IMG/VR virus record: IMGVR_UViG_3300043436_002214
Location: 1-23,445 of that record
Strand: one strand, 5' to 3'
DNA length: 23,445 nt
Origin: a virus
Made by a program: the position numbers and the translations under genes. Under the pieces are notes generated by a model. That model did no database searches. It was not told where the DNA came from and was given only the letters and a program-made list of their open reading frames with translations. Of this stretch, positions 2,726-19,513 are shown one piece after another; the first letter of the stretch is position 1, and each line of letters starts with the position of its first letter.

Positions 2726-2929
2726 TTACTTAGCTCCTGTGCCAAATGCGTTGTCAGAAGGGTTTAGATAACGAAGTAGTACTGGGAGAATCGCTACGAC
2801 ACCTGCGGTGAGGATAGCTTTTACTCCTTCTAGGTCAAGGCTAAATACATCTCCACCTGTGGCAACAAATGCGGAAACTGCTGCAGCCATGAACGAGCGA
2901 CCCCATGAGGCCAACATTGCTTTATTCAT
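2726..2929 (-). CDS. r1t-type holin-like membrane protein, 67 aa
   Basis: The sequence follows the pattern of phage r1t holins and related actinophage proteins: MNKAMLASWGRSFMAAAV at the start, one hydrophobic helix (residues 10-26), an Asp-containing linker, a second helix (38-55, ILTAGVVAILPVLL) and the ending RYLNPSDNAFG. Two helices and this length fit a small pore-forming or membrane-anchoring protein. It sits near an exported lysozyme-like gene (3393, opposite strand). A second holin-like gene lies at 11843-12253, so which one times lysis is open. Confidence 0.78.
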   Translation of the reverse strand: MNKAMLASWGRSFMAAAVSAFVATGGDVFSLDLEGVKAILTAGVVAILPVLLRYLNPSDNAFGTGAK

Positions 2930-3012
2930 TTATTTCTCTACCTTTCGAGACACAACTAGGTTAGTGCCTGCACAATTAGTCTGCCTGATTTACAACTTGA
3001 TGTCAAGCCCAA

Positions 3013-3258
3013 CTACTTTGAAGATTCCTCAATATGTTGCGTAAACCGTCCCTCTAAGCGTGCCATTGAAATTTTTTGTTCTGTTACATCTCTACTAATT
3101 TGATTTAACTGGTCCTTCATTGAGCTTCCACCGTTTGGTTTCAATTCGGACAAATACCCCTTTAACCAACTCTTTAATAACCAATTAGTTATTGAAATAG
3201 TAAATAAAGCAAACGTAGCAAAACTAGCTAATGTTTGCGCCCATTGTAAAACAGTCAT
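3013..3258 (-). CDS. Membrane-anchored coiled-coil protein, 81 aa
   Basis: One transmembrane helix (about residues 9-30), then a polar linker and a C-terminal helix with heptad-like spacing (QLNQISRDVTEQKISMARLEG). The ATG at 3258 is preferred over the TTG at 3261 because of its distance from an AGGA ribosome site. This architecture recalls small phage hemolysin XhlA-type or holin-accessory proteins, but similarity is only architectural. It begins the minus-strand set that runs on through the holin-like and terminase genes, and is divergent from the lysozyme-like gene at 3393. Confidence 0.65.
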   Translation of the reverse strand: MTVLQWAQTLASFATFALFTISITNWLLKSWLKGYLSELKPNGGSSMKDQLNQISRDVTEQKISMARLEGRFTQHIEESSK

Positions 3259-3326
3259 CAAATTATTTCCTGTCTAAAAGGCGTTATACGCAGTGTAGAA
3301 AAAAGTTTGTCATAAAAACACACCTT

Positions 3327-3355
3327 TGTCATGCTATTCAACTTGACATATATAC
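3327..3355 (+). promoter_or_regulatory. Putative promoter for the plus-strand lysozyme-whiB pair
   Basis: TTGTCA (3327-3332), 17 bp, TATATA (3350-3355); transcription would start near 3362. A TTGACA lies within the spacer, and TTTGTCAT occurs twice (3307 and 3326), 19 bp apart, which could be an operator. For the divergent gene only weak -10 matches (TACACT or TATAAC on the minus strand around 3280-3295) are visible. Confidence 0.5.
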
Positions 3356-3392
3356 GTAACTCAGTGTTTCCTTGTACTAAGGAGGAAATCAA

Positions 3393-3959
3393 ATGCTTTT
3401 GTTTAAGAACATAGCGCCAGAGTCAAAGGGATTAGGAGCCATGGCAATGTCCATGGTACTCGTAGTCGTGATGACAGTAAACGCAACTGGCTCGTCCCAA
3501 GCTTCAAATGAGTTTGGAGACGCAAAAGATATGGGTTCTGTCCAAGTAGTTACATTAAATGATTACTCAGATAAGACCTCACTCACGGACACGGAGTTAA
3601 AAGAACTTCTAACTCTTGTCGGATTTAAAGGGTCTGCGCTTAAGACAGCGTGGGCCGTAGCTAAAAAGGAATCCAACGGACGACCTTTAGCTCACAATAA
3701 AAATGCTAATACTGGGGACAACTCTTATGGCATTTTTCAAATCAACATGTTAGGCAGCCTCGGTGAGGACAGGAGAGAAAAGTTCTCTCTATTGACTAAC
3801 TCTGATTTGTTTAACCCAGTAAAAAACGCTCAGATAGCGTTTTATATGACCCAAGGAGGAGAAGACTGGTCCTCTTGGACATATTTGGAAGGAGAACGGT
3901 TTAAGCAATTTTTGCTTGAATACCCAGCGATATTTAATACCAAAAACAATAAGGAGTAA
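3393..3959 (+). CDS. Exported lytic transglycosylase / lysozyme-like protein, 188 aa
   Basis: Likely cleaves peptidoglycan glycan strands. Residues 16-31 form a hydrophobic signal or anchor segment followed by a plausible signal-peptidase site (SSQA-SN). The catalytic domain (about 65-180) has the SLT-family catalytic Glu in KKESNG (E93) and the hallmark SYGIFQIN (111-118), then an NPVKNAQIAFYM segment and a DWSSWTYL strand typical of the fold. The ATG has a strong AAGGAGG site. It is on the opposite strand from almost all late genes and is followed 3 nt later by the WhiB gene. It could be a secondary endolysin or a secreted wall-remodelling enzyme; the main CHAP endolysin is at 11283-11843. 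Confidence 0.85.
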   Translation: MLLFKNIAPESKGLGAMAMSMVLVVVMTVNATGSSQASNEFGDAKDMGSVQVVTLNDYSDKTSLTDTELKELLTLVGFKGSALKTAWAVAKKESNGRPLAHNKNANTGDNSYGIFQINMLGSLGEDRREKFSLLTNSDLFNPVKNAQIAFYMTQGGEDWSSWTYLEGERFKQFLLEYPAIFNTKNNKE

Positions 3960-3962
3960 TAC

Positions 3963-4226
3963 ATGGCTAAAGCACCAGGTTTTGACGGTACGCAACCCTG
4001 CGCTACTGTAAATGGAGATATGTTTTTTCCAGAAACTGGTGCTGAAACTATAGAGTTAAAACCTGTACTAAATAAGATATGCAATAGTTGTCAGTTCCAA
4101 ACACCTTGTTTACAGTATGCGTTAGAAAACGCTGTTCAAGGTTTTTGGGCTGGCACTGTTGAACGTGAAAGACGACTTATGCGTAAGCGTTTAAATATTG
4201 TAGTTAAGCCGTTAGTTTATTACTAA
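3963..4226 (+). CDS. WhiB-family [4Fe-4S] transcriptional regulator, 87 aa
   Basis: WhiB-like proteins bind a 4Fe-4S cluster through four Cys and act with the principal sigma factor of Actinobacteria. All four are present: C13, C40-x2-C43 and C49 (KICNSCQFQTPC). The G-W turn and basic tail follow as GFWAGTVERERRLMRKR. Length fits the family. An AAGGAG ribosome site precedes the ATG, 3 nt after the lysozyme-like stop, so the two are co-transcribed. Phage WhiB proteins (for example in mycobacteriophage TM4) are known to interfere with host WhiB control. This is the best evidence for an actinobacterial host. Confidence 0.92.
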   Translation: MAKAPGFDGTQPCATVNGDMFFPETGAETIELKPVLNKICNSCQFQTPCLQYALENAVQGFWAGTVERERRLMRKRLNIVVKPLVYY

Positions 4227-5911: not shown

Positions 5912-6316
5912 CTACCACTTACCGATAGGACAAGAAGCCTCTTTTAATTTTGTTTTTGCTTGCATAAAACACCCACATTTTTTGCATGTTTTGGTAAGTT
6001 GAATTAAATGTTCACAACCCAAACAAATATCTAGTCTATTTTTAGCGGTTTCGTCATCAGTGTAATTTGCTTTGTTTAGTAAATCCCAAGGCTTTACAGT
6101 TCTCTTTTTAACTTCGTCCTCTGTTGGTGGGGAGCAATCAAACTCACCATTTTCGTGTCTACATCCAACACCCACTTCAGGGTTATTAGTTAAATCTACA
6201 ATAGTTGGATTATTCAGTAGGATAGAGCCAAGTCTAGGCGGGGTTCCGATAAAGTCTACAACTTCTCCATCTAATACAAACCCTACTCGTTTAGAGCCTT
6301 CTGGTAACTGGTCCAT
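5912..6316 (-). CDS. Cys-rich zinc-binding phage protein, 134 aa
   Basis: The N-terminal half (RVGFVLDGEVVDFIGTPPRL) is a short beta region; the C-terminal third holds six Cys: C98, C101, C111, C114, C116 and C129 in a RLDICLGCEHL ... CKKCGCFM ... KEASCPIGKW pattern. I know this ending from phage proteins in marine and freshwater viruses, often next to glycosyltransferases or oxygenases. It probably binds one or two metals. Good AGGAG site with 6-nt spacing to the ATG. Stops 5 nt before the preferred glycosyltransferase start. Confidence 0.78.
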   Translation of the reverse strand: MDQLPEGSKRVGFVLDGEVVDFIGTPPRLGSILLNNPTIVDLTNNPEVGVGCRHENGEFDCSPPTEDEVKKRTVKPWDLLNKANYTDDETAKNRLDICLGCEHLIQLTKTCKKCGCFMQAKTKLKEASCPIGKW

Positions 6317-6357
6317 GTTTTTCTCCTATACTGTAGTACGACAATTCTATACTATGA

Positions 6358-6948
6358 TTATAAAAGTGGTAGCCATTTTTGAGGATATTGTTTTTCTAAT
6401 AAAGGTATGGGGGCTATGCTAAACGTCAGAATTTTTATGTTTTCTTCCCCATATACAATTCGTTTTCCAGCTTCAAATAAAAGGATAGTTCCTTTAGGAG
6501 TGGAGTATTTATCTCCATTAACAGAGGTAGTAGACTCTTCAGAAGACTCAATAAAATAAACGCCAGAGAAACAAGGTACGCTTACCCCACCCATGTCATA
6601 CCAGACGTCAGTTCTTACACTGTCTGAGTAATCTGATGAAAGGTAGTAACCAGCTTTGCTACTTAAATCATAGTAAGATAGGGCATCAATAAGTAGACCT
6701 TTAATTACCTGTAAAGCCTTGTTGATGTTTCTATTGTAGGCGCCAAAGTAGTTTTTTGAATCTGGGTTTTCTACAGGAATATGCCCTAGAAAATCGGCCT
6801 TTATACCGCTGTTAAATTTGTATACCTCATCTGGTGGGTACACTTTGTTTATTACCTCTTCTAATATGTTTTTAGGGTCAGAGGCCCCAGTAAATACTTT
6901 AAAAGGTTGTAGTTCTCTATTTAACAGGACTTCCTCTAGGTTACCCAT
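6358..6948 (-). CDS. Cupin / 2-oxoglutarate-oxygenase-like protein, 196 aa
   Basis: Residues 110-180 alternate strands and glycine turns (VWYDMGGVSVPCFSGVYFIE, PKGTILLFEAG, IKILTFSIAP), like the double-stranded beta-helix of 2OG-Fe(II) oxygenases used with DUF6065 and glycosyltransferases in other phages. However, no clear HxD...H metal triad is visible, so activity is doubtful. The ATG at 6948, behind GGGGGA, is preferred to a TTG at 6972; it overlaps the stop of the upstream gene by 8 nt. Fold assignment is tentative. Confidence 0.5.
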   Translation of the reverse strand: MGNLEEVLLNRELQPFKVFTGASDPKNILEEVINKVYPPDEVYKFNSGIKADFLGHIPVENPDSKNYFGAYNRNINKALQVIKGLLIDALSYYDLSSKAGYYLSSDYSDSVRTDVWYDMGGVSVPCFSGVYFIESSEESTTSVNGDKYSTPKGTILLFEAGKRIVYGEENIKILTFSIAPIPLLEKQYPQKWLPLL

Positions 6949-7507
6949 TAAATCCCCCAATTCTTTGACCAAACCATATCACAGGAGATGCTGGGTCTCT
7001 AGGAGGCTCTTGTTCAGGCATAGAAACCCTACCCCCAAGTATTGGGCTGTTAGGGTTGTTGTGGTTCATTAATTTAGTCAATGTTCCATACAGCCTATTA
7101 GTTATAGGACTTCGGTTTCTAGTTCCCTCTAAAAGAATGCCCCCAGCATTGTTATAGAATACTGAACGCAGCACACTAGCTAAAAACTTCCAATACCCGC
7201 GTCGTCTGTATATTGGATTTGTATACATTCTATTTGACTCTACAGTTTTGTTAAGCTCTGTATAAGAACCCCGTTGGTCAGGTGCTTGTATTGTGTACAT
7301 ATCTGGGTATTGGTTAGGAGTAAACTGAGAAAATATAATGGTTCCCGTTGGATATGTGGTGTTCTTGTAAAGTCCTATAGATATTTTAATAAATTCAGAG
7401 TTTACAAAACACGCGTGAATCCAAGAGTCACCTAGCTCTGTAGGGTATTGAGACAAGTTCATCATAGAGTGGCCGTCAATTGTTATTGGAGATATAGTAG
7501 TTGTAAT
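6941..7507 (-). CDS. GNAT-like acetyltransferase (tentative), probable ATT start
   Basis: Residues about 97-140 (NPIYRRRGYWKFLASVL, then GGILLEGTRN and a RLYGTL end) resemble the acetyl-CoA pyrophosphate loop and following strand of GNAT enzymes; the rest is not distinctive. Start choice is unusual: the first ATG (7465) has no ribosome site, while the open frame continues upstream with no ATG/GTG/TTG to an ATT at 7507 that lies 8 nt after a perfect AGGAG overlapping the previous stop (TAGGAG). I therefore place the start at ATT, adding 14 residues (TTTISPITIDGHS after the initiator). Function and start both need proof. Confidence 0.5.
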   Translation of the reverse strand: MTTTISPITIDGHSMMNLSQYPTELGDSWIHACFVNSEFIKISIGLYKNTTYPTGTIIFSQFTPNQYPDMYTIQAPDQRGSYTELNKTVESNRMYTNPIYRRRGYWKFLASVLRSVFYNNAGGILLEGTRNRSPITNRLYGTLTKLMNHNNPNSPILGGRVSMPEQEPPRDPASPVIWFGQRIGGFNG

Positions 7508-7518
7508 TGTTAAGTCTC

Positions 7519-9597
7519 CTAAAGGCTTACAGAATCATGCACCAATAGATGTTCAGTATAAAACACGTCATACGGTTCACAGTCTATTGAAACAACTTCG
7601 TGAGGTATTTCACCAGTCTTAAGATACTTTATGTCTTCCCAACTACTGGTTTGGTAATTATAAACCTTGTCACTAATAGACACTTCTGTAGACAGAACAA
7701 ATAAAGCTTTAGCTCCTTTTTTAACTAGAACATAGTGAGTATCAGAGAACAAATCGTTGTTTATTACCACACCTCTAGAAGCGGTTCTTCTAGTAATACT
7801 AACAACTGTTGTTTCCACGGTAGTAAACACTGGGTTCTTTGAAGACCAATTTATTGCAGCCAAAGTAGAGCCTGGAAGGTCTTCATAAGGGAACCCTTCA
7901 ATATCTGCGGAAAGCAGCACGTCTCCTACTTCAACACTTCCAGCAACAATTAGTCCATCTGGCGTTCTTAACAAAGTGTTTACACCAATAGATTTAATGG
8001 GTCCGATTGGTGGAAGTATAAATGGGTCAGGAGGAGGAGGCGGACCTGGGTCAGGAGGAGGCGGACCTGGGTCAGGAGGAGGCGGTGGAGTTTCATTATT
8101 TGTTCCACCAGACACGGAGCTATAAATAGGAATGTTTGGACAGCAATCAGGCGCACAGCACTGAGGTGCGTAATAATACGTTCCCATATTTACATATTGA
8201 CAGGTACAAGTAGCAGGAGGAGGCGGTGGTGGCGGTGGAGGTGGTGGCGTACTGCCTCCACATACAAAGGTTTCACCACAAGTAGTGACTGTAAAAATAG
8301 CCGGTCCGCCGCATGTGGCTCTGTATTCAGAGTAGGTGTATTGAAAAACGCATCCACCAGGAGGTGGAGGTGGCGGAGGAGGCGGAGGAGGTGTTCCGCC
8401 GCCTGTTGCTGTACAAGGGCCGTAAGTATTAAGGCAACCAAAATTAGTTATACATACTGTTTGTGTTCCTTCAGTAAATGTTCCTGATATTGGGTTGTAA
8501 ATTTGGCATGATTGAGTACTTGTTCCTAGTGCACAGGTAACACAGTCAATTGCTGGTGGCGGTGGCGGTGGGGGCGGTGGGCTACTACTGCCGCAGTTTG
8601 TAGACTGACATGCTGGATATGCTCCAGTGTTGTTATAGATACACTGTGTTGAATACCCTGAACCACTTGCAGAAACATCTGATGCAGATTCAGAGGTACC
8701 GCAATTTCCTGTGCCAGCACATTGAACTGAGGTTGTACACTTCCAAGAAAACGAATTTACTGCAACATTTGCTCCTGAGTAGTAATTACCACATGGGCCA
8801 GACTGTGATGTGCTTGTGCAAGGGCTACAAGAATTTGAAATATCAGCACCAGAACAGTAACAAGTTCCACCTGTAGTAGTTTGACTACAACCAGGGAGGT
8901 TTTCGGTTATGCATACGCCTGGAACGCTATAGTTACAAGAAGATACTTCAAAAGTATAATTATCGTACCTGCGAAAACCAGAAGCACAACCATCATCTGC
9001 TTGAGGACCTGAGCTAAATCCGTAAGAAGCTCCGCAATAAGTCGCACCTGTGTATCTGTTACCACAAGCTCCTGTTTGAGAAGTACTTGTGCAAGGGCTG
9101 CAAGGATTAGCTACATCAGCAGAAGAGCAGTAACAAGTTCCTCCAGTAGTAGTAGCTTGTGGACACACATCTCCGCCGCTGCCGCAGTTAGGTTGGCTTA
9201 CACTTCCTGAAGCACCACAAATCCAGTTGCTTGGATTACCAGAAAGATTTTGCCAGTAAGAACAACAAGAGCCTGTTGTACATCCACCAAATGCAACACC
9301 ATTATCTGTTCCGCACACAGCTCCGCCTGAAACAACACTTGCACCGTTACAGTAATAAAATCCTATGTTTACACAAGAAACTAAGCCGCTTCCGCCGCCG
9401 CCTCCAGGAGGCGGTGGTGGTGGTGGAGGAGGGGGTGGAGGAGGAGGAGGAGGGGCTGCTGCTGGGAAAGATTGACGCCAAACACCGTTATTTTTTACAT
9501 AAGTATTAGTAACAGCTTTCCAAACACCATTAACTTTTACATAATAAGCAGATGCTGCTTGCCAGCCACTTGGTGTTTTGACGTACCCGTGTGACAT
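7519..9597 (-). CDS. Cys/Pro-rich fibre-like protein with C-terminal Hint domain, 692 aa
   Basis: A modular virion-type protein. Residues 5-43 contain three short YVK...GVW repeats seen at the N-termini of phage tail or fibre proteins. A run of about 16 Pro and a Gly5 linker follow, then Cys-rich modules joined by further polyproline stretches (about residues 340, 400, 455 and 505-530). Two modules repeat each other (TTTGGTCYCS ... CSPCTSTSQ). Residues 536-692 form a Hint (intein-like) domain: SIGVNTLLRTPDG (block A), SVEVGDVLLS, SDTHYVLVKKGA (block B) and YDVFYTEHLLVHDS at the end (blocks F/G). No homing endonuclease insert. The ATG sits behind AGGT. Likely a receptor-binding or surface fibre; host attachment is inference. 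Confidence 0.75.
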   Translation of the reverse strand: MSHGYVKTPSGWQAASAYYVKVNGVWKAVTNTYVKNNGVWRQSFPAAAPPPPPPPPPPPPPPPPGGGGGSGLVSCVNIGFYYCNGASVVSGGAVCGTDNGVAFGGCTTGSCCSYWQNLSGNPSNWICGASGSVSQPNCGSGGDVCPQATTTGGTCYCSSADVANPCSPCTSTSQTGACGNRYTGATYCGASYGFSSGPQADDGCASGFRRYDNYTFEVSSCNYSVPGVCITENLPGCSQTTTGGTCYCSGADISNSCSPCTSTSQSGPCGNYYSGANVAVNSFSWKCTTSVQCAGTGNCGTSESASDVSASGSGYSTQCIYNNTGAYPACQSTNCGSSSPPPPPPPPPAIDCVTCALGTSTQSCQIYNPISGTFTEGTQTVCITNFGCLNTYGPCTATGGGTPPPPPPPPPPPGGCVFQYTYSEYRATCGGPAIFTVTTCGETFVCGGSTPPPPPPPPPPPATCTCQYVNMGTYYYAPQCCAPDCCPNIPIYSSVSGGTNNETPPPPPDPGPPPPDPGPPPPPDPFILPPIGPIKSIGVNTLLRTPDGLIVAGSVEVGDVLLSADIEGFPYEDLPGSTLAAINWSSKNPVFTTVETTVVSITRRTASRGVVINNDLFSDTHYVLVKKGAKALFVLSTEVSISDKVYNYQTSSWEDIKYLKTGEIPHEVVSIDCEPYDVFYTEHLLVHDSVSL
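8024..8091. repeat. Tandem repeat coding for a Pro-Asp-Pro-Gly linker
   Basis: Three near-identical units of about 21 bp (core GGACCTGGGTCAGGAGGAGG) encode the PPPPDPG repeats before the Hint domain. The first unit has one extra AGG triplet, suggesting slippage. Similar GGN-triplet tracts at about 8215-8248, 8364-8396, 8556-8580 and 9408-9460 encode the other polyproline linkers. Confidence 0.8.
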
Positions 9598-10310: not shown

Positions 10311-10471
10311 GGGGACCACCTGTTCCATTGAATAGCCTGAGTCACCATACCGGGAATAGAGGGCTTCCAACCTGCCTTTGTTATAGCGTCTCTAAATTCT
10401 CTGCTACGTCCAGTAAGTAGTTTTACTGGCTCACTAGGGACGTTTAGGGGGCTGTTAACTTCTTTTTCCAC
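10307..10471 (-). CDS. Small hypothetical protein, 54 aa, GTG start
   Basis: Reads MEKEVNSPLNVPSEPVKLL, then a basic helix (GRSREFRDAITKAGWKP) and GMVTQAIQWNRWSP. It fills the gap between two neighbours, overlaps the upstream gene by 17 nt and ends in a TGA that overlaps the ATG of the next gene. Trp and balanced composition argue for real coding, but no clear ribosome site precedes the GTG. Confidence 0.45.
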   Translation of the reverse strand: MEKEVNSPLNVPSEPVKLLTGRSREFRDAITKAGWKPSIPGMVTQAIQWNRWSP

Positions 10472-11225
10472 GGCTTTTACTTGCTAAATAATTTGCTTCG
10501 TTACTTAACATTGTTGAACTTGGTTCTGGGTTTACTGAGTAACTTCCATCAGAAGCCTTGTTAATACCAGACTTTCTAGATTTAACTGGTTTTGAAGGTG
10601 TATCAAACCCTGAAGCATTTGCTTTTTTACCTGCTGCTCTAGATGCGTATTTTTTAGCGTATGTTGGGCTAATCTCTATTGCGTCTTCTTCTGTAATATG
10701 ACCGCCAGCTACAGCTGCACGGGTATCTGTGTAAGTGCCTTTTCTGCCCTTAGACTTACCTGTAGAGCTCCACTGCTTGCCTTCAGCATGCCCGGAAGGA
10801 TTTGGTTTTGGTGTTGAGTCACCAGCTGTTTGATTTTGTACATCTTTAATTACATCTCCGTATTCAACGCTAAATCCACCTTTTCCATCTGCAGCAAGTT
10901 TTCTTAGTTTGCTACCTTCAGGGGTGTTTTTACCTGATGCTCCATAATGATAGTCGCCTCGTCGTGTTTCTCTATCGAGGTCATACTCTTTCATTGTGTT
11001 TTCATTTTGCCAATCTTCAGCACTTCTTTCGTTAGAACCTGAAGATGTTCTGGAAGAACTTCTAGACGAACTATTAGCTCCTCTACCACCAGGAGTTCCT
11101 CGTCCTAAAAACACTGCTGCAGCAATCTGTCCCATTGAGGAGTTGCGTCCAGCTTTTTTACCAAAGCCAGAGGCTGCACGTCCTTCTGATTCAGCGGAAG
11201 GTTTATTCATACCAAAAGTAGCCAT
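10455..11225 (-). CDS. Basic Ser/Gly/Lys-rich protein with one GHI repeat unit, 256 aa
   Basis: Mostly polar, low-complexity sequence with Ser/Arg runs near residues 52-66. A hydrophobic patch (GQIAAAVFLG, 32-41) occurs near the N-terminus. Residues 165-190 (TYTDTRAAVAGGHITEEDAI, then EISPTYAKK) match the unit repeated five times in the 292-aa protein at 18429-19307, linking the two genes. No known domain recognised. Possibly an internal virion or assembly protein; that is inference from basic charge and location among structural genes. Confidence 0.65.
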   Translation of the reverse strand: MATFGMNKPSAESEGRAASGFGKKAGRNSSMGQIAAAVFLGRGTPGGRGANSSSRSSSRTSSGSNERSAEDWQNENTMKEYDLDRETRRGDYHYGASGKNTPEGSKLRKLAADGKGGFSVEYGDVIKDVQNQTAGDSTPKPNPSGHAEGKQWSSTGKSKGRKGTYTDTRAAVAGGHITEEDAIEISPTYAKKYASRAAGKKANASGFDTPSKPVKSRKSGINKASDGSYSVNPEPSSTMLSNEANYLASKSRGKRS

Positions 11226-12467: not shown

Positions 12468-12634
12468 TCTTCGTCCTTCGGATTTCTAAGCGGGTAGGTC
12501 ACCGCCCAAGCAACTAATGTTCCCACAATTGCGTATCCCACAACGGTCTTAGCTGAGCCATCTAGGACAACCCAAGCAATAAACATTCCCAAAAGGGTCC
12601 ATAGCTGGTCAATCATGTCTCTTATTACTTTCAT
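12464..12634 (-). CDS. Small membrane protein, 56 aa
   Basis: [20 protein letters not shown] begins a first hydrophobic stretch (10-24); a second helix (29-47, [18 protein letters not shown]) ends in PLRNPKDEE. It is coupled on both sides by ATGA overlaps, to the 948-aa gene upstream and to the lipoprotein downstream. The coupling and membrane pattern make it a convincing gene. Could be a holin partner. Confidence 0.75.
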
Positions 12635-15477
12635 GGCTTACGTCTCCTAACGCCTTTACTGTCTCCTGATGGACCTCCGCCACCAGAGCTACCTCCGCCA
12701 CTTGAACCACCAGTGCTTCCACCAGTGCTTCCTGTTGCTGCACCAACTGCATTTATAGCAGCGCCTGCAGCTACAACGGCAGCAACAACCATTTCGGTTG
12801 CTTCTTCACGCTCTTCAGTGGACATATCAGCACCGATACTTCCAAGTGCTTGTAGTGCTTCACCTGGGTCGCTAAATATTGCGCCAATTAATTCGGATGG
12901 GTTCTCTAGTAAAACTAAAGCCGCAGCTACGTCTGCTGTAATTATAACTTCATTACCGTTTTCATCCTGCCTAACCTCAACAGGGGTCTGTTCAGGAAGG
13001 TCTTGATAAGCAATGCCAGCTTCTTGAATTTGTTCTTTTGTAAGAGTTTCTCCAGGAACTACTGATTCAATAAGGGCTTCTGCTACAAGTTCTTTTTCTG
13101 CCGTTGTAAACTTTCCATCTCCAGCAAGGGTTTCTGAAAGGTTATTTACCTCTGCTTGTGTAACCACTCCATCAGCTGATAAAGCATCTAAGATTAAAGA
13201 CTCTTCGGCAACGGTTAACTTACCGCCATCGCTTAGTGCTTCAATTAAAGCCGTAGCTTCAGCCTCTGTAACTTCTCCGTCAGCCATTAAAGAGTCAACA
13301 ACAGCATCAGACTCTGCTGCTGTTAAGTTGCCGTCAGATAGAACATCTTCAACCGCAGACTCCACCGCTTCTTCAGGTGTGATAGTCTCTGGAACTGTTT
13401 CTTCAATAGGAGGTTCTAATGGTTCTGTGGACGGATTTTCTGGCTCTGGCTCTGGTGACACTGGTTCTGGTGTTGGTTCCTCGGGTGTGGAAGGTTCCTC
13501 AGGCGCCTCGGGCTCTACGGGTGGCTCTTCGGGCTCTACCGGTGCTGGTGGCTCTTCTGTGGGTTCTGATGGCGTTTCTGTATCAGGGGCAGGTTCAGTA
13601 GGTGCGTCAGGTTCAGGCTCAGGAGTTGGTTCAGGCTCTACAGGCGGCTCAGGAAGAGGTTCTGGCTCTGGCACAGGCTCAGGCTCGGGTTCTGGGGTTG
13701 GTTGCGGCTCAGGTTGAGGAGTTGGCTCAGGCTCAACGGGAGGCTCTGGATTGGGATTTACAGGAGGCTCGGGCTGAGGAGTTGGTTCAGGTTGAGGAAC
13801 AGGTTGAGGTTCTGGAACCGGGGTGGGCTCGGGGACCACTGGTGGAACTGTAGGAGGTTCTGGTGAAGGTTCGGGTTGTGGTGCTGGCTCTGGTTGTGGT
13901 GCTGGTGTTGGCTCTGGCTGCGGTGCGGGAGTTGGCTCGGGTGCTGGAGTCGGCTGAGGAGTTGGAGTTTGAAGAGCTGTGACTGCAGTAGCAACTGTAG
14001 ATGTAGCGGTATCAGCTAAAGTATTTGCTGTAGTAACTGCTGTAGTAGCCGTTGATTGGAGGGTAGTTAATGTTTGAGTTTCTGTTGTTAGTGTGGACTG
14101 AGCTGTTGCAAGCTCTGTCACTGCTACTGTTTTCACTTCTGTAAGAGTATTTAAAGTAGCAACTTCAACTGCTTTAACTTCTGTTTTATCAGCGACTACT
14201 GCTGTTTGGCTTGTAATTTGAGCCGTTAAAGTTTCATTGGTTACATTGGTCATTGGCTGTACTGGAGCACCTGCAGTTTCACGCACTCCAATACGAGGTC
14301 CGTTATACAAGTTAGTTGTATTACCAGCAACAGTTCCAACGCCTGTCCACTCCCCTGTTTCAGGGTTTACAGTCATTGTCCAATTAACATTTGTAATAGG
14401 GCTGTTATTATCACCAAACTTTTTAAGGTTCCAATCAACTTCTAACGTTGTGTCTGTAGTTGTAACAGTAATTCCTGCACCGGTTCCAGCACTCATAAAG
14501 TCAGAGCCATAAACAGAAATATGTGCTCCTTGAGGAAAATCCCACCAAATATGGTCTCCAATGCCAAAGGTAATCGTTGCTTTTGAGGTTACATAAATTT
14601 GGCTATCTGTACCTTGACCGTTGTATACGGTATCGCCCATTTTAATATCAAATGGGGTTTGAATTTTAGTTGAACCATCGTACATAACAGGAAGAGTAGT
14701 TGTAGTCACGGTTGGGGTTTCTGGAGCAACAGGGGCTACATATCCTTCAGTTGTGTAGGTCTTGCTATCTGAAGGGGTATTTTGAAGAGCGGTCAATGTA
14801 GTTTGAGCATTAGTTAAGTTAGTTGTTGCAACTGCTACTACTGCTGTTTGAGACTCTACTGCTGCTGTGGCTGTAGCAACAACTGCGGTTGCAGTAGTAA
14901 CGTCCTGCGTTACTACGGCTACTACTGCTGTTTGTGACTCAACTGCTGCTACTGCGGTCACTGCTACTGCTGTTGCTGACTCTGCTGCCGCAATAGCTGT
15001 TTGAGCTGTTGCTACTGGCTCTGCTGCTGCAGAAATTTGTTCTGTACTTGCTGTTGATATAGCAGTGCTTAATGTTACAGTTGCATTCTCAATTTTTTCT
15101 TGGACGGAGGTAACTGATGGAACAAGTGGTGTGGTTTCTGTTTGGGTTGGGGCTGGGGTTGGCTCTGGATTGGGTACTGGTGAAGTTGATGTTGAAACCG
15201 CTGAAGAAGCGGTTGTCGGCTCTGGAGTTGTCTCGGGGCTCGGGGCAGGACTTGCCTCAGCACCAGAATTCGTACTGGAAGTTTGAGGGTCCGAAGTTGC
15301 AGAAGAAGGTTCTGGACTTGGAGATGGAGTTGGAGTCGATTCGTTCGAAGACTCTGTGGAAGCAGGACTAACTGCTACCTGTTCTGGGGCAGGGTCAGTA
15401 GCGCTCGCGTTTGATTGGCCAAGCAAAAATAGAAATAATGTGAGGACTGTTGCTGCGAATATGCGCAGTATTAACAT
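12631..15477 (-). CDS. Large exported Ala/Thr/Pro-rich surface protein, 948 aa
   Basis: A signal peptide (residues 1-26, cleavage near NASA-TD) is followed by a Ser/Thr/Pro-rich linker to about 120 and an Ala/Thr/Val-rich helical repeat region (TAV motifs, about 120-235). A folded beta domain covers about 245-408 ([18 protein letters not shown] ... [12 protein letters not shown] ... [15 protein letters not shown]), then a second TAV helical region. A 190-residue Pro/Glu stalk (502-690), five 18-residue DG-x-h-T repeats (712-805) and a hydrophobic segment (895-915) follow; the end is a Gly/Ser tail with RRRKP. Architecture is of a cell-surface stalk protein, not a normal virion part. A GAGGT site sits unusually close to the ATG. 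It is coupled to the lysis-like cassette. Confidence 0.75.
13063..13344 (-). repeat. Five 18-residue DG-x-h-T protein repeats
   Basis: Within the 948-aa protein, D-G pairs occur at residues 715, 733, 750, 769 and 787 in units such as [17 protein letters not shown] and [17 protein letters not shown]. Spacing is 17-19 residues. DG followed by hydrophobic-Thr and E three later recalls half of an EF-hand loop or a helical hairpin repeat. Confidence 0.75.
13408..13972 (-). repeat. Pro/Glu-rich stalk coding region
   Basis: Encodes residues about 502-690 of the 948-aa protein, an irregular PEP / PQPEP / PAP repeat with many Glu. On the DNA this appears as GGCTC/GGTTC-rich hexamer-like repetition. 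Such stalks are extended rods that hold a domain away from a surface. Confidence 0.8.
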
Positions 15478-16537: not shown

Positions 16538-16813
16538 TTAACAATCCCATGCGCGAAGGGACTTGTTAATTCTACTATTTGGGTCTTTAGCAGTCTTGCT
16601 AGACGTATTTTTTTTCTTCATGCCCTCCATACGGGAACAGAAAGATTTACGACGAGCGGCAGACTTAGGAGACTTCTTAGCTTGTTCCTTCTTAACAGGG
16701 GGTTTTAAATTACTTCCAGGGTTTGCTTTTTCATAAGACTTACGACCCTTTTCGTTAAGACCGCCTTTAGCGTTCTTACCTTCTTTGCGTGTCCAGGCTT
16801 CTGACTTTGCCAT
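16538..16813 (-). CDS. DUF6321-like basic protein, 91 aa
   Basis: Closely follows the DUF6321 pattern known from many aquatic phages: SEAWTRKEGKNAKGGLNEKG, SYEKANPGSNLKPP, RRKSFCSRMEGMKKK and the end SSKTAKDPNSRINKSLRAW. Very basic, so nucleic-acid or virion-interior association is plausible; biochemical function is not known. GGAG site 9 nt before the ATG. Confidence 0.85.
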   Translation of the reverse strand: MAKSEAWTRKEGKNAKGGLNEKGRKSYEKANPGSNLKPPVKKEQAKKSPKSAARRKSFCSRMEGMKKKNTSSKTAKDPNSRINKSLRAWDC

Positions 16814-17865: not shown

Positions 17866-18066
17866 TTAATCCTTACTTGTTATAACTGGGGATTTACGCC
17901 CGTCTGGCAACTCCATCCAACGATGTACTCCTTGACTTGAACGAGACTCTTTTCTTACCATGAGAGGTTCGTTTTCTTTTGTAAAGAAAGTTTTAGGGTC
18001 AAAGCCTCCACCGTCAGTAGCTTCTGGGTCAGCTCCGCCGTGAAAGTCTGCATTATTACGTCCCAT
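17866..18066 (-). CDS. Hypothetical protein, 66 aa
   Basis: Gly/Asp-rich N-terminus (MGRNNADFHGGADPEATDGG) followed by FDPKTFFTKENEPLMV and a basic tail with WMELPDGRKSP. Not recognised. TAATG overlap with the upstream 27-aa gene. Confidence 0.6.
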   Translation of the reverse strand: MGRNNADFHGGADPEATDGGGFDPKTFFTKENEPLMVRKESRSSQGVHRWMELPDGRKSPVITSKD

Positions 18067-18149: not shown

Positions 18150-18253
18150 ATTGAAGTCCATCCAGCATATTGAGCATCTGGATTATCTTTAAGCCACTGC
18201 TTATGCAGCTCATTTTGAAGTTTCCAATCAACATCCGTATTACGTTCTGTCAT
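18146..18253 (-). CDS. Micro-gene, 35 aa
   Basis: MTERNTDVDWKLQNELHKQW then LKDNPDAQYAGWTSI, an amphipathic Trp-rich peptide. ATGA overlaps at both ends with neighbours. Function unknown. Confidence 0.55.
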   Translation of the reverse strand: MTERNTDVDWKLQNELHKQWLKDNPDAQYAGWTSI

Positions 18254-18432
18254 TTTTGTCTCTCAATTGATTTAGAAACAACATCTCTTGCTGCCATAGA
18301 AGAAGAATACCGTTGAACAGTACCTCGTGGTCCCCCAAATATACGGTCGCTTATTCTTCTAAACTGTTGACCTTTTGCAAATTCGCTTGACCGAGGCAGA
18401 TATGCAGTAACTACACCTACGGATTTCTTCAC
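18250..18432 (-). CDS. Hypothetical protein, 60 aa
   Basis: Basic protein (MKKSVGVVTAYLPRSSEFAK ... RRISDRIFGG ... RDVVSKSIERQK). No recognised domain. Overlaps the upstream GHI-repeat gene by ATGA and the next micro-gene by ATGA. Confidence 0.6.
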   Translation of the reverse strand: MKKSVGVVTAYLPRSSEFAKGQQFRRISDRIFGGPRGTVQRYSSSMAARDVVSKSIERQK

Positions 18433-19307
18433 TTGTCTTCTCCAGGGTTGATATTAAGAAACTGCTTACCTTTTTTGTGGTATCCAGTATCCATCTTTCG
18501 AAGGTTACTTTTTAACTGCCTCATCTTTAGGGGGTCTGACGGTGGATAGGATGGGTTTAAAGAGCTACCCTCTTCTAATGTTATGTGTCCTTGGGAAACA
18601 GCTCTATGGATGTTAGTTTGACTTGGGGTTCTTCCCTCCCCAGAGGCTTTTATATCCTTATTCTTATTAAACCTTTTTAATTGTTTTTGTTGTTCTTTAT
18701 CAGTAGGTTTGTAATTTGTGTTTAAATCAGTAGCCTCTTCAGAGGTAATGTGTCCAGCGGAGTGGGCTTTATAAATATCTTGCAAAATTGGTATTTTTCC
18801 ATGGGAAGACGAGATTGCTTTATTAGCTCTTGCTCTATTATGAGACTTTTGCCAATTAGGGTGCAAATCATCAGCCTCTTCTTTTGTAATATGGCCTTCT
18901 TTGTAAGCTTTAGCAACATGTGTAGGTCTTGCTGGAACAGCAATACTTGAACCGGCATACTTCACTCTAGGGTTGCTAGGATTAAACGTTGGGTTTAAAT
19001 CACGTGCTTCATCTTCATTAATGTGACCAGCTTTAAAAGCATGATGTACATCGCTTTGATTTGCGCTTAGTGGGGCTGCACCTTGTTGATATTGTCTATG
19101 TTGATTTCTTTGGTTGTTCGTTCCTGTTTTTCCGTATTTTTTCTTAGGGTTATAAACAGGATTTAAATCCGAAGCTTGCTCATCATCTATATGACCAGTT
19201 TCTACAGCTGCGTACACATGCTTTAGTGATGGTTTAGCACCTTTGACACCAGAACGCATACTCTCATTACGTGCGGCTCTACCCTCAGTACGTCTTTTTC
19301 CAGGCAC
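18429..19307 (-). CDS. Protein with five GHI / LNP repeats, 292 aa
   Basis: Highly basic protein built from five copies of a unit of about 25 residues, with GHI at residues 38, 94, 138, 185 and 240. Each unit is an amphipathic helix (for example KHVYAAVETGHI, VHHAFKAGHI, THVAKAYKEGHI, IYKAHSAGHI, NIHRAVSQGHI), then T-x-E-EA, a Leu, and usually NP followed by an aromatic. Linkers of 20-30 residues are polar and Lys/Gln/Asn-rich. The same unit occurs once in the protein at 10455-11225. I know no named family for this. Suggested role: repeated docking peptide or nucleic-acid-binding helical hairpin in a virion-interior or assembly protein (inference). Confidence 0.7.
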   Translation of the reverse strand: MPGKRRTEGRAARNESMRSGVKGAKPSLKHVYAAVETGHIDDEQASDLNPVYNPKKKYGKTGTNNQRNQHRQYQQGAAPLSANQSDVHHAFKAGHINEDEARDLNPTFNPSNPRVKYAGSSIAVPARPTHVAKAYKEGHITKEEADDLHPNWQKSHNRARANKAISSSHGKIPILQDIYKAHSAGHITSEEATDLNTNYKPTDKEQQKQLKRFNKNKDIKASGEGRTPSQTNIHRAVSQGHITLEEGSSLNPSYPPSDPLKMRQLKSNLRKMDTGYHKKGKQFLNINPGEDK

Positions 19308-19513
19308 TATTTATCCGCATCACGCCAGCTGTTGCCTAATGCAATAGCTTCATCCTCGTGTTGACGTAATGAATCGCTATCCCCCTGTTTAGATGACTTA
19401 GGTTTCACGATACCCTTACGAATGGGTCCAAACTGAGACAAAGCGGCATTGGCTTTACTAAAGCGCTTCTCTGATAGCTGAACTACGTTCCACTGAGAGT
19501 CATTAGGGTTCAT
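19307..19513 (-). CDS. Hypothetical protein, 68 aa
   Basis: MNPNDSQWNVVQLSEKRFSK, then LSQFGPIRKG and a polar tail. Not recognised. Stop-start overlap with the repeat gene downstream (TAATG). Confidence 0.6.
   Translation of the reverse strand: MNPNDSQWNVVQLSEKRFSKANAALSQFGPIRKGIVKPKSSKQGDSDSLRQHEDEAIALGNSWRDADK

Follow-up and report, generated by a model that had tools for sequence, protein, structure and literature searches.

The locus and its repeated units

The window, by which we mean the whole stretch of DNA analysed here, is a 23,445-base fragment of a viral contig. It carries a WhiB-like gene (PF02467 Whib, E = 1.7e-11, positions 3963-4226) and, given that whiB has been reported as a key actinophage indicator (PMC10202952), the window can be regarded as a phage of actinobacteria. 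The locus of interest is a gene for a basic protein of 292 residues, tightly packed between two small genes: its GTG start overlaps the stop codon of the upstream 68-aa gene (TAGTG), and its own stop overlaps the start of the downstream 60-aa gene (GTGA). The tripeptide GHI occurs in this protein at residues 38, 94, 138, 185 and 240, with a spacing of 56, 44, 47 and 55 residues. A previous sequence-only reading of this DNA had described five repeat units in the 292-aa protein and a sixth one in a 256-aa protein, and our analysis confirmed all six at the right coordinates, with the 292-aa gene on the minus strand (Table 1).

Structure prediction and alignment together define the GHI unit as a stand-alone module some 28 residues long, in which a first helix (PxxxxVxxA) and the G-H-I turn are followed by a capped second helix (T-x-E-E-A) and, as a tail, [DE]LNPx[YFW]. 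The glycine is invariant in the aligned units, and the E-E pair is present in most of them. The motif as originally proposed (GHI, followed by T-x-E-E-A and L-N/H-P-x-aromatic) holds for its core in the five units and the sixth, but not in every detail: units 1 and 2 have D or N in place of the T of T-x-E-E, and the tail departs from LNPxY in unit 4 (Table 1) as well as in unit 6, where it reads ISPTY.

Table 1. GHI units, their carrier and flanking genes in the window, and GHI proteins from other viral contigs
Feature	Position or record	Strand	Remarks
292-aa basic protein, five GHI units	18429..19307	(-)	GTG start
GHI unit 1	19137..19247	(-)	37 aa including flanks
GHI unit 2	18969..19079	(-)	in 292-aa protein
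GHI unit 3	18837..18947	(-)	the one absent from the four-unit homologue L030
GHI unit 4	18696..18806	(-)	LNTNY replaces LNPxY
GHI unit 5	18531..18641	(-)	in 292-aa protein
256-aa basic late protein, one GHI unit	10455..11225	(-)	beside CHAP-domain endolysin
GHI unit 6 (256-aa protein)	10644..10754	(-)	GHI at residue 175
f68, 68-aa gene	19307..19513	(-)	constant gene upstream of the variable slot; N-terminus MNPNDSQW
f60, 60-aa gene	18250..18432	(-)	constant gene downstream of the slot; family conserved in L002, L003, L013, L015
GHI proteins from other contigs	L002, L003/L004, L005		one unit; pattern search
GHI protein	L006		two units, second degenerate
GHI proteins	L026-L029		one unit, GKI
GHI protein	L030		four units; homologue of the 292-aa protein
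GHI proteins	L039/L041		one unit
GHI protein	L040/L077		two units in 1163 aa
GHI protein	L042		two units in a late protein of at least 714 aa

The linkers of the 292-aa protein have a low-complexity look, which would suit a chance repetition devoid of function. Such an explanation is contradicted by several kinds of evidence and its probability is practically negligible. The pattern GHI..[ED][EDQ][AG] was observed five times in the protein against 0.00015 expected per shuffled protein, and in a leave-one-out HMM analysis each of the five units reached 33-46 bits, compared with at most 18.5 bits in 40,000 shuffles. An HMM built exclusively from foreign units scored the 292-aa protein with 217 bits (E 4.9e-67; top of 20,000 shuffles, 16.8) and the 256-aa protein with 23.7 bits (E 1.3e-6; top shuffle, 7.7). 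Purifying selection and the recurrence of the unit across diverse contigs, described below, speak equally against chance.

Relatives in other phages

The family was collected through motif patterns, including a validated degenerate DNA pattern for the GHI core (KCNNNNNNNNNNGGNMANATHNNNNNNGANSANGSNNNNNNNYTNMAYCC), combined with neighbour genes. In this way, around ten further GHI proteins were found in viral contigs, and unit number varies among these relatives, with 1, 2, 4 or 5 units. Because most of the foreign loci had been picked by core-motif patterns at the DNA level, the E-values of these loci are inflated to some degree. Three results are independent of this selection. The first is the extent of the match to L030: this four-unit protein aligns with the 292-aa protein over 222 aa at 36% identity (E = 4e-33), and unit 3 is missing in the alignment, so that one whole unit has been gained or lost. 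The second is the order of genes in L002, which encodes a one-unit GHI protein at the same gene position as the 292-aa gene. The third concerns the 256-aa protein: a profile search of whole records detected its orthologue (L075, E = 1e-22) in the L002 record, and therefore the L002 phage has, like the window, both kinds of GHI proteins.

Other searches were negative within their scope. With the whole 292-aa protein as a query, no homologue appeared in phage records and none was confirmed in viral contigs. A tblastn search with the consensus unit, a 34-aa query of low power, gave no match in phages and a single chance-level match in plasmids, and 396 Actinomycetota genomes yielded two marginal matches (per-genome E 3.5e-4 and 9.5e-4), roughly the chance expectation. 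The pattern matches L031-L038 were likewise discarded as chance. Gene order had raised the suspicion that the 256-aa protein of the window was part of a fusion with the 258- and 268-aa late proteins of L077 and L076, which found no blastp support.

Conservation is concentrated in the units: between the five-unit protein and its four-unit homologue, identity is 48.6% in the units and 30.9% in the linkers. When the 256-aa gene was compared with that of L008, the GHI unit showed 14 synonymous changes and a single nonsynonymous one, a result with a probability of 1.7e-8 under neutral evolution. Outside the unit the counts were 29 and 16, respectively, and the contrast between unit and rest is marginal (p = 0.046). 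Far from showing no conservation in relatives, which had been named among the outcomes that would refute the idea, the unit is subject to purifying selection and conserved in the manner of a docking piece.

Variable gene slots and late genes

A comparison with four related records, L007-L010, which are ~95-97% identical to the window around the locus, revealed that all four lack the 292-aa gene and have a 47-aa gene flanked by the same genes of 68 and 60 aa. The slot holding the 292-aa gene is variable and the gene is accessory; being absent there, it is not needed for assembly in these four close relatives. The corresponding row of L002 consists of homologues of the 68-aa gene, a 154-aa gene, the 47-aa gene, the one-unit GHI gene and the 60-aa gene. 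This pattern could stem from loss of the 47-aa gene in the window and of the GHI gene in the relatives, or from some other course of gains and losses. The 256-aa gene is retained in L008, L009 and L010. A second gene-sized difference was seen nearby, where the 66-aa gene of the window (17866-18066, minus strand) is replaced in L007 by one of 103 aa that likewise starts with MGRNNADF.

A second slot for GHI genes lies beside the 177-aa and the 117-126-aa families. It is occupied in L005, in L006 (two units, 808-2194) and in L030 (four units, 6048-7858), and empty in L078, a relative of the window (2740-3626). In L005, L006 and L030 this slot is found near replication and accessory genes.

Past the GHI slot, the gene order in the group of the window continues with HNH, DUF6321, a PASTA-like protein, a CHAP lysin, the 256-aa GHI protein and a lysozyme, after which come the terminase, portal, scaffold-like and major head protein genes. 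In L039/L041, which belong to a different phage group by their terminase (no significant blastp match), a one-unit GHI gene directly follows terL (phrog_38, 7e-65). The sequence-only reading had suggested, as one example, a docking motif for a virion or packaging protein, and GHI genes do occur in the late region, immediately beside the terminase in one phage group.

Some other genes of this region offered observations of their own. The DUF6321 protein (16538-16813, minus strand; 6.8e-25) belongs to a family with further matches at the C-terminus of several larger phage protein families in PHROGs, and represents another module common to different phage proteins. A Pro-rich late protein of 948 aa (12631-15477, minus strand), with a weak Glycos_trans_3N match, has its own short helix-turn repeats (DGxxTxxE, around residues 700-800), in a layout like that of GHI with a different motif. 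Finally, a 692-aa protein (7519-9597, minus strand) combines long poly-Pro tracts with Cys-rich segments and has no Pfam match.

The accessory and slot-changing behaviour of the GHI gene keeps a host partner among the rival explanations. Here the target of the units would be a host protein, such as a polymerase or a component of the nucleoid or of a defence system, which the multi-unit protein would sequester in the course of takeover or counter-defence. The patchy distribution of the gene over at least two slots, gained and lost among phages ~95-97% identical around the locus, would suit such a role, as would the small size and basic character of the protein, its neighbourhood of other small variable genes, and the second slot near replication and accessory genes. 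The same unit, however, is also present in late proteins of 256, 1163 and >714 aa and beside terL in L041, and PADLOC returned just one weak match (0.002, HEC-02A). On balance we regard a host-directed function as somewhat unlikely, albeit the strongest of the alternatives.

Predicted structure and charge of the units

An AlphaFold2 model of a 37-residue unit, obtained with 21 aligned units, shows helices at positions 8-17 and 22-28 with a mean pLDDT of 86.5 (92-94 in the core), values that may be over-optimistic for short helical pieces. In the model of the full 292-aa protein, ten-residue blocks over the hairpins mostly score 82-94, several linkers fall below 50, and the pTM is 0.27. This low pTM and the low linker scores picture the hairpins as beads, with no packing of unit on unit. 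Instead of the unstructured chain that had been named among the outcomes refuting the original proposal, the prediction is a confident helical hairpin.

The distribution of charge is markedly uneven. The units of the 292-aa protein add up to a net charge of -13 over 120 aa, each of the five being net negative, and its linkers to +30 over 172 aa. This division extends to the family: the part outside the units is positive in 12 of the 12 GHI proteins examined, if nearly neutral in L042, and acidic or neutral units are seen in 11 of the 12, those of L077 being slightly positive. The second proposal of the sequence-only reading, that helical hairpins contact DNA, finds no support in this light. 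Two helices joined by a short turn, in proteins that are basic as a whole, would be compatible with direct contact in the style of a helix-hairpin-helix, but the units are acidic, the strong positive charge resides in the linkers, and the weak Foldseek results do not allow naming any DNA-binding family. We consider DNA-contacting hairpins very unlikely.

Comparison with known families

The claim that the unit was undescribed stands. Nothing exceeded the curated cut-offs in Pfam and NCBIfam, matches in PHROGs were weak, no PDB sequence was significant, and no clear match to a known domain emerged. A profile search of the PDB gave partial matches only (E 0.66 and 4.6), and photosystem II D2 (phrog_16300), phosphoglycerate mutase and ribosomal S20 were rejected as relatives, their weak, below-cut-off matches being due to chance. 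The DUF1707 SHOCT-like domain (PF08044) matched unit 3 weakly (E = 0.0045), with 17.4 bits against a cut-off of 27.6 and over 16 of 53 positions.

The closest resemblance is to SHOCT (PF09851), described as a domain of two helices and ~30 aa with conserved Gly and Glu, mostly C-terminal (89% within 50 aa of the end) and with its own function open (PMC3581485). GHI shares the two helices, the length of about 30 residues, the Gly and the Glu, as well as a hydrophobic residue after the conserved Gly and the T-x-E-E cap. An hhalign comparison found a local core of 16 columns with a score of 19.0, where the best of 40 column-permuted nulls reached 12.4. In contrast, the global profile alignment was poor (11.6), the second helix of GHI lacks the EF..K..LL of SHOCT and does not align with it, and GHI has an additional LNPx[YFW] tail and the His. 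SHOCT occurs as one C-terminal copy, whereas GHI forms internal repeats (residues 38-240 in the 292-aa protein) and is also internal in L042 and L077. In Pfam searches, SHOCT was not matched at E<=1 by the 292-aa protein, the 256-aa protein or proteins of six relatives, nor at E<=0.1 by the GHI proteins of L040, L041 and L042. Only the hairpin core of GHI resembles SHOCT, and by Pfam criteria GHI is not a SHOCT member.

At the level of fold, Foldseek and VIA produced no outstanding match. The best recurring PDB hit in both was the small phage protein gp23.1 of SPP1 (2xf5/2xf7; Z 2.5, rmsd 2.4 over 30 residues), which is not significant (E 2.6, Z <3); two helices arranged in this way are common. 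Altogether, we class GHI as a repeat family not described before, built of short helical hairpins.

Units of this sort might also associate hairpin to hairpin, so that their carriers would form a network or scaffold with no separate partner. Short amphipathic hairpins often oligomerise, and the unit is present in two proteins of one genome, both in the window and in the L002 record. Yet AlphaFold2 did not pack the five units against each other, and the SHOCT hairpin, which resembles the GHI core, failed an oligomerisation test (PMC3581485). Self-association appears improbable to us.

A putative docking module on a tether

Our preferred reading, to which we give slightly less than even odds (a probability of about 0.45), is that GHI units, carried on a tether that binds nucleic acid, provide multivalent docking to a protein during late phage assembly. 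In each unit, the conserved His of GHI and the LNPxY tail would make the contact with this protein, the common partner of all GHI carriers. The basic, mostly disordered linkers may bind nucleic acid or an acidic surface, whereby the 292-aa protein would work as a multivalent adaptor resembling a string of beads, recruiting the partner or gathering it into clusters during late assembly or packaging. The first candidate for this partner is a packaging or virion component of the phage, on account of the late-gene setting and the neighbouring terminase. If unit copy number tunes avidity, as we propose, this would explain why units are gained and lost, why the 292-aa gene is dispensable and why the one-unit 256-aa protein is kept. 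By analogy, and with no sequence relation claimed, multivalent docking modules on disordered tethers likewise combine small folded repeats, flexible linkers and a variable copy number.

A separate observation concerns the start of several small proteins. An N-terminal M-x-P-[NST]-x-x-Q-[FWY] was found in 9 otherwise unrelated small ORFs of the cluster, against 0.48 expected from shuffling, with carriers at 19307-19513 (minus strand) in the window and in L003 (its GHI protein), L014, L015, L078 and L081. This motif is possibly a second shared tag. In a related scenario that we consider doubtful, and as improbable as self-association, GHI would be a cargo tag in the phages of this actinophage group: the hairpin, accompanied in some proteins by the N-terminal MxP[NST]xxQ[FW], would load many unrelated small basic proteins onto one common particle or machine, the accessory cassettes being swappable and the tag kept.

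Most genes of these phages are without an assigned function, and the GHI module links several unrelated proteins of one phage. Identifying the one partner of the docking unit would give a role to around ten proteins at once, and the natural series from one to five units offers a ready avidity experiment.
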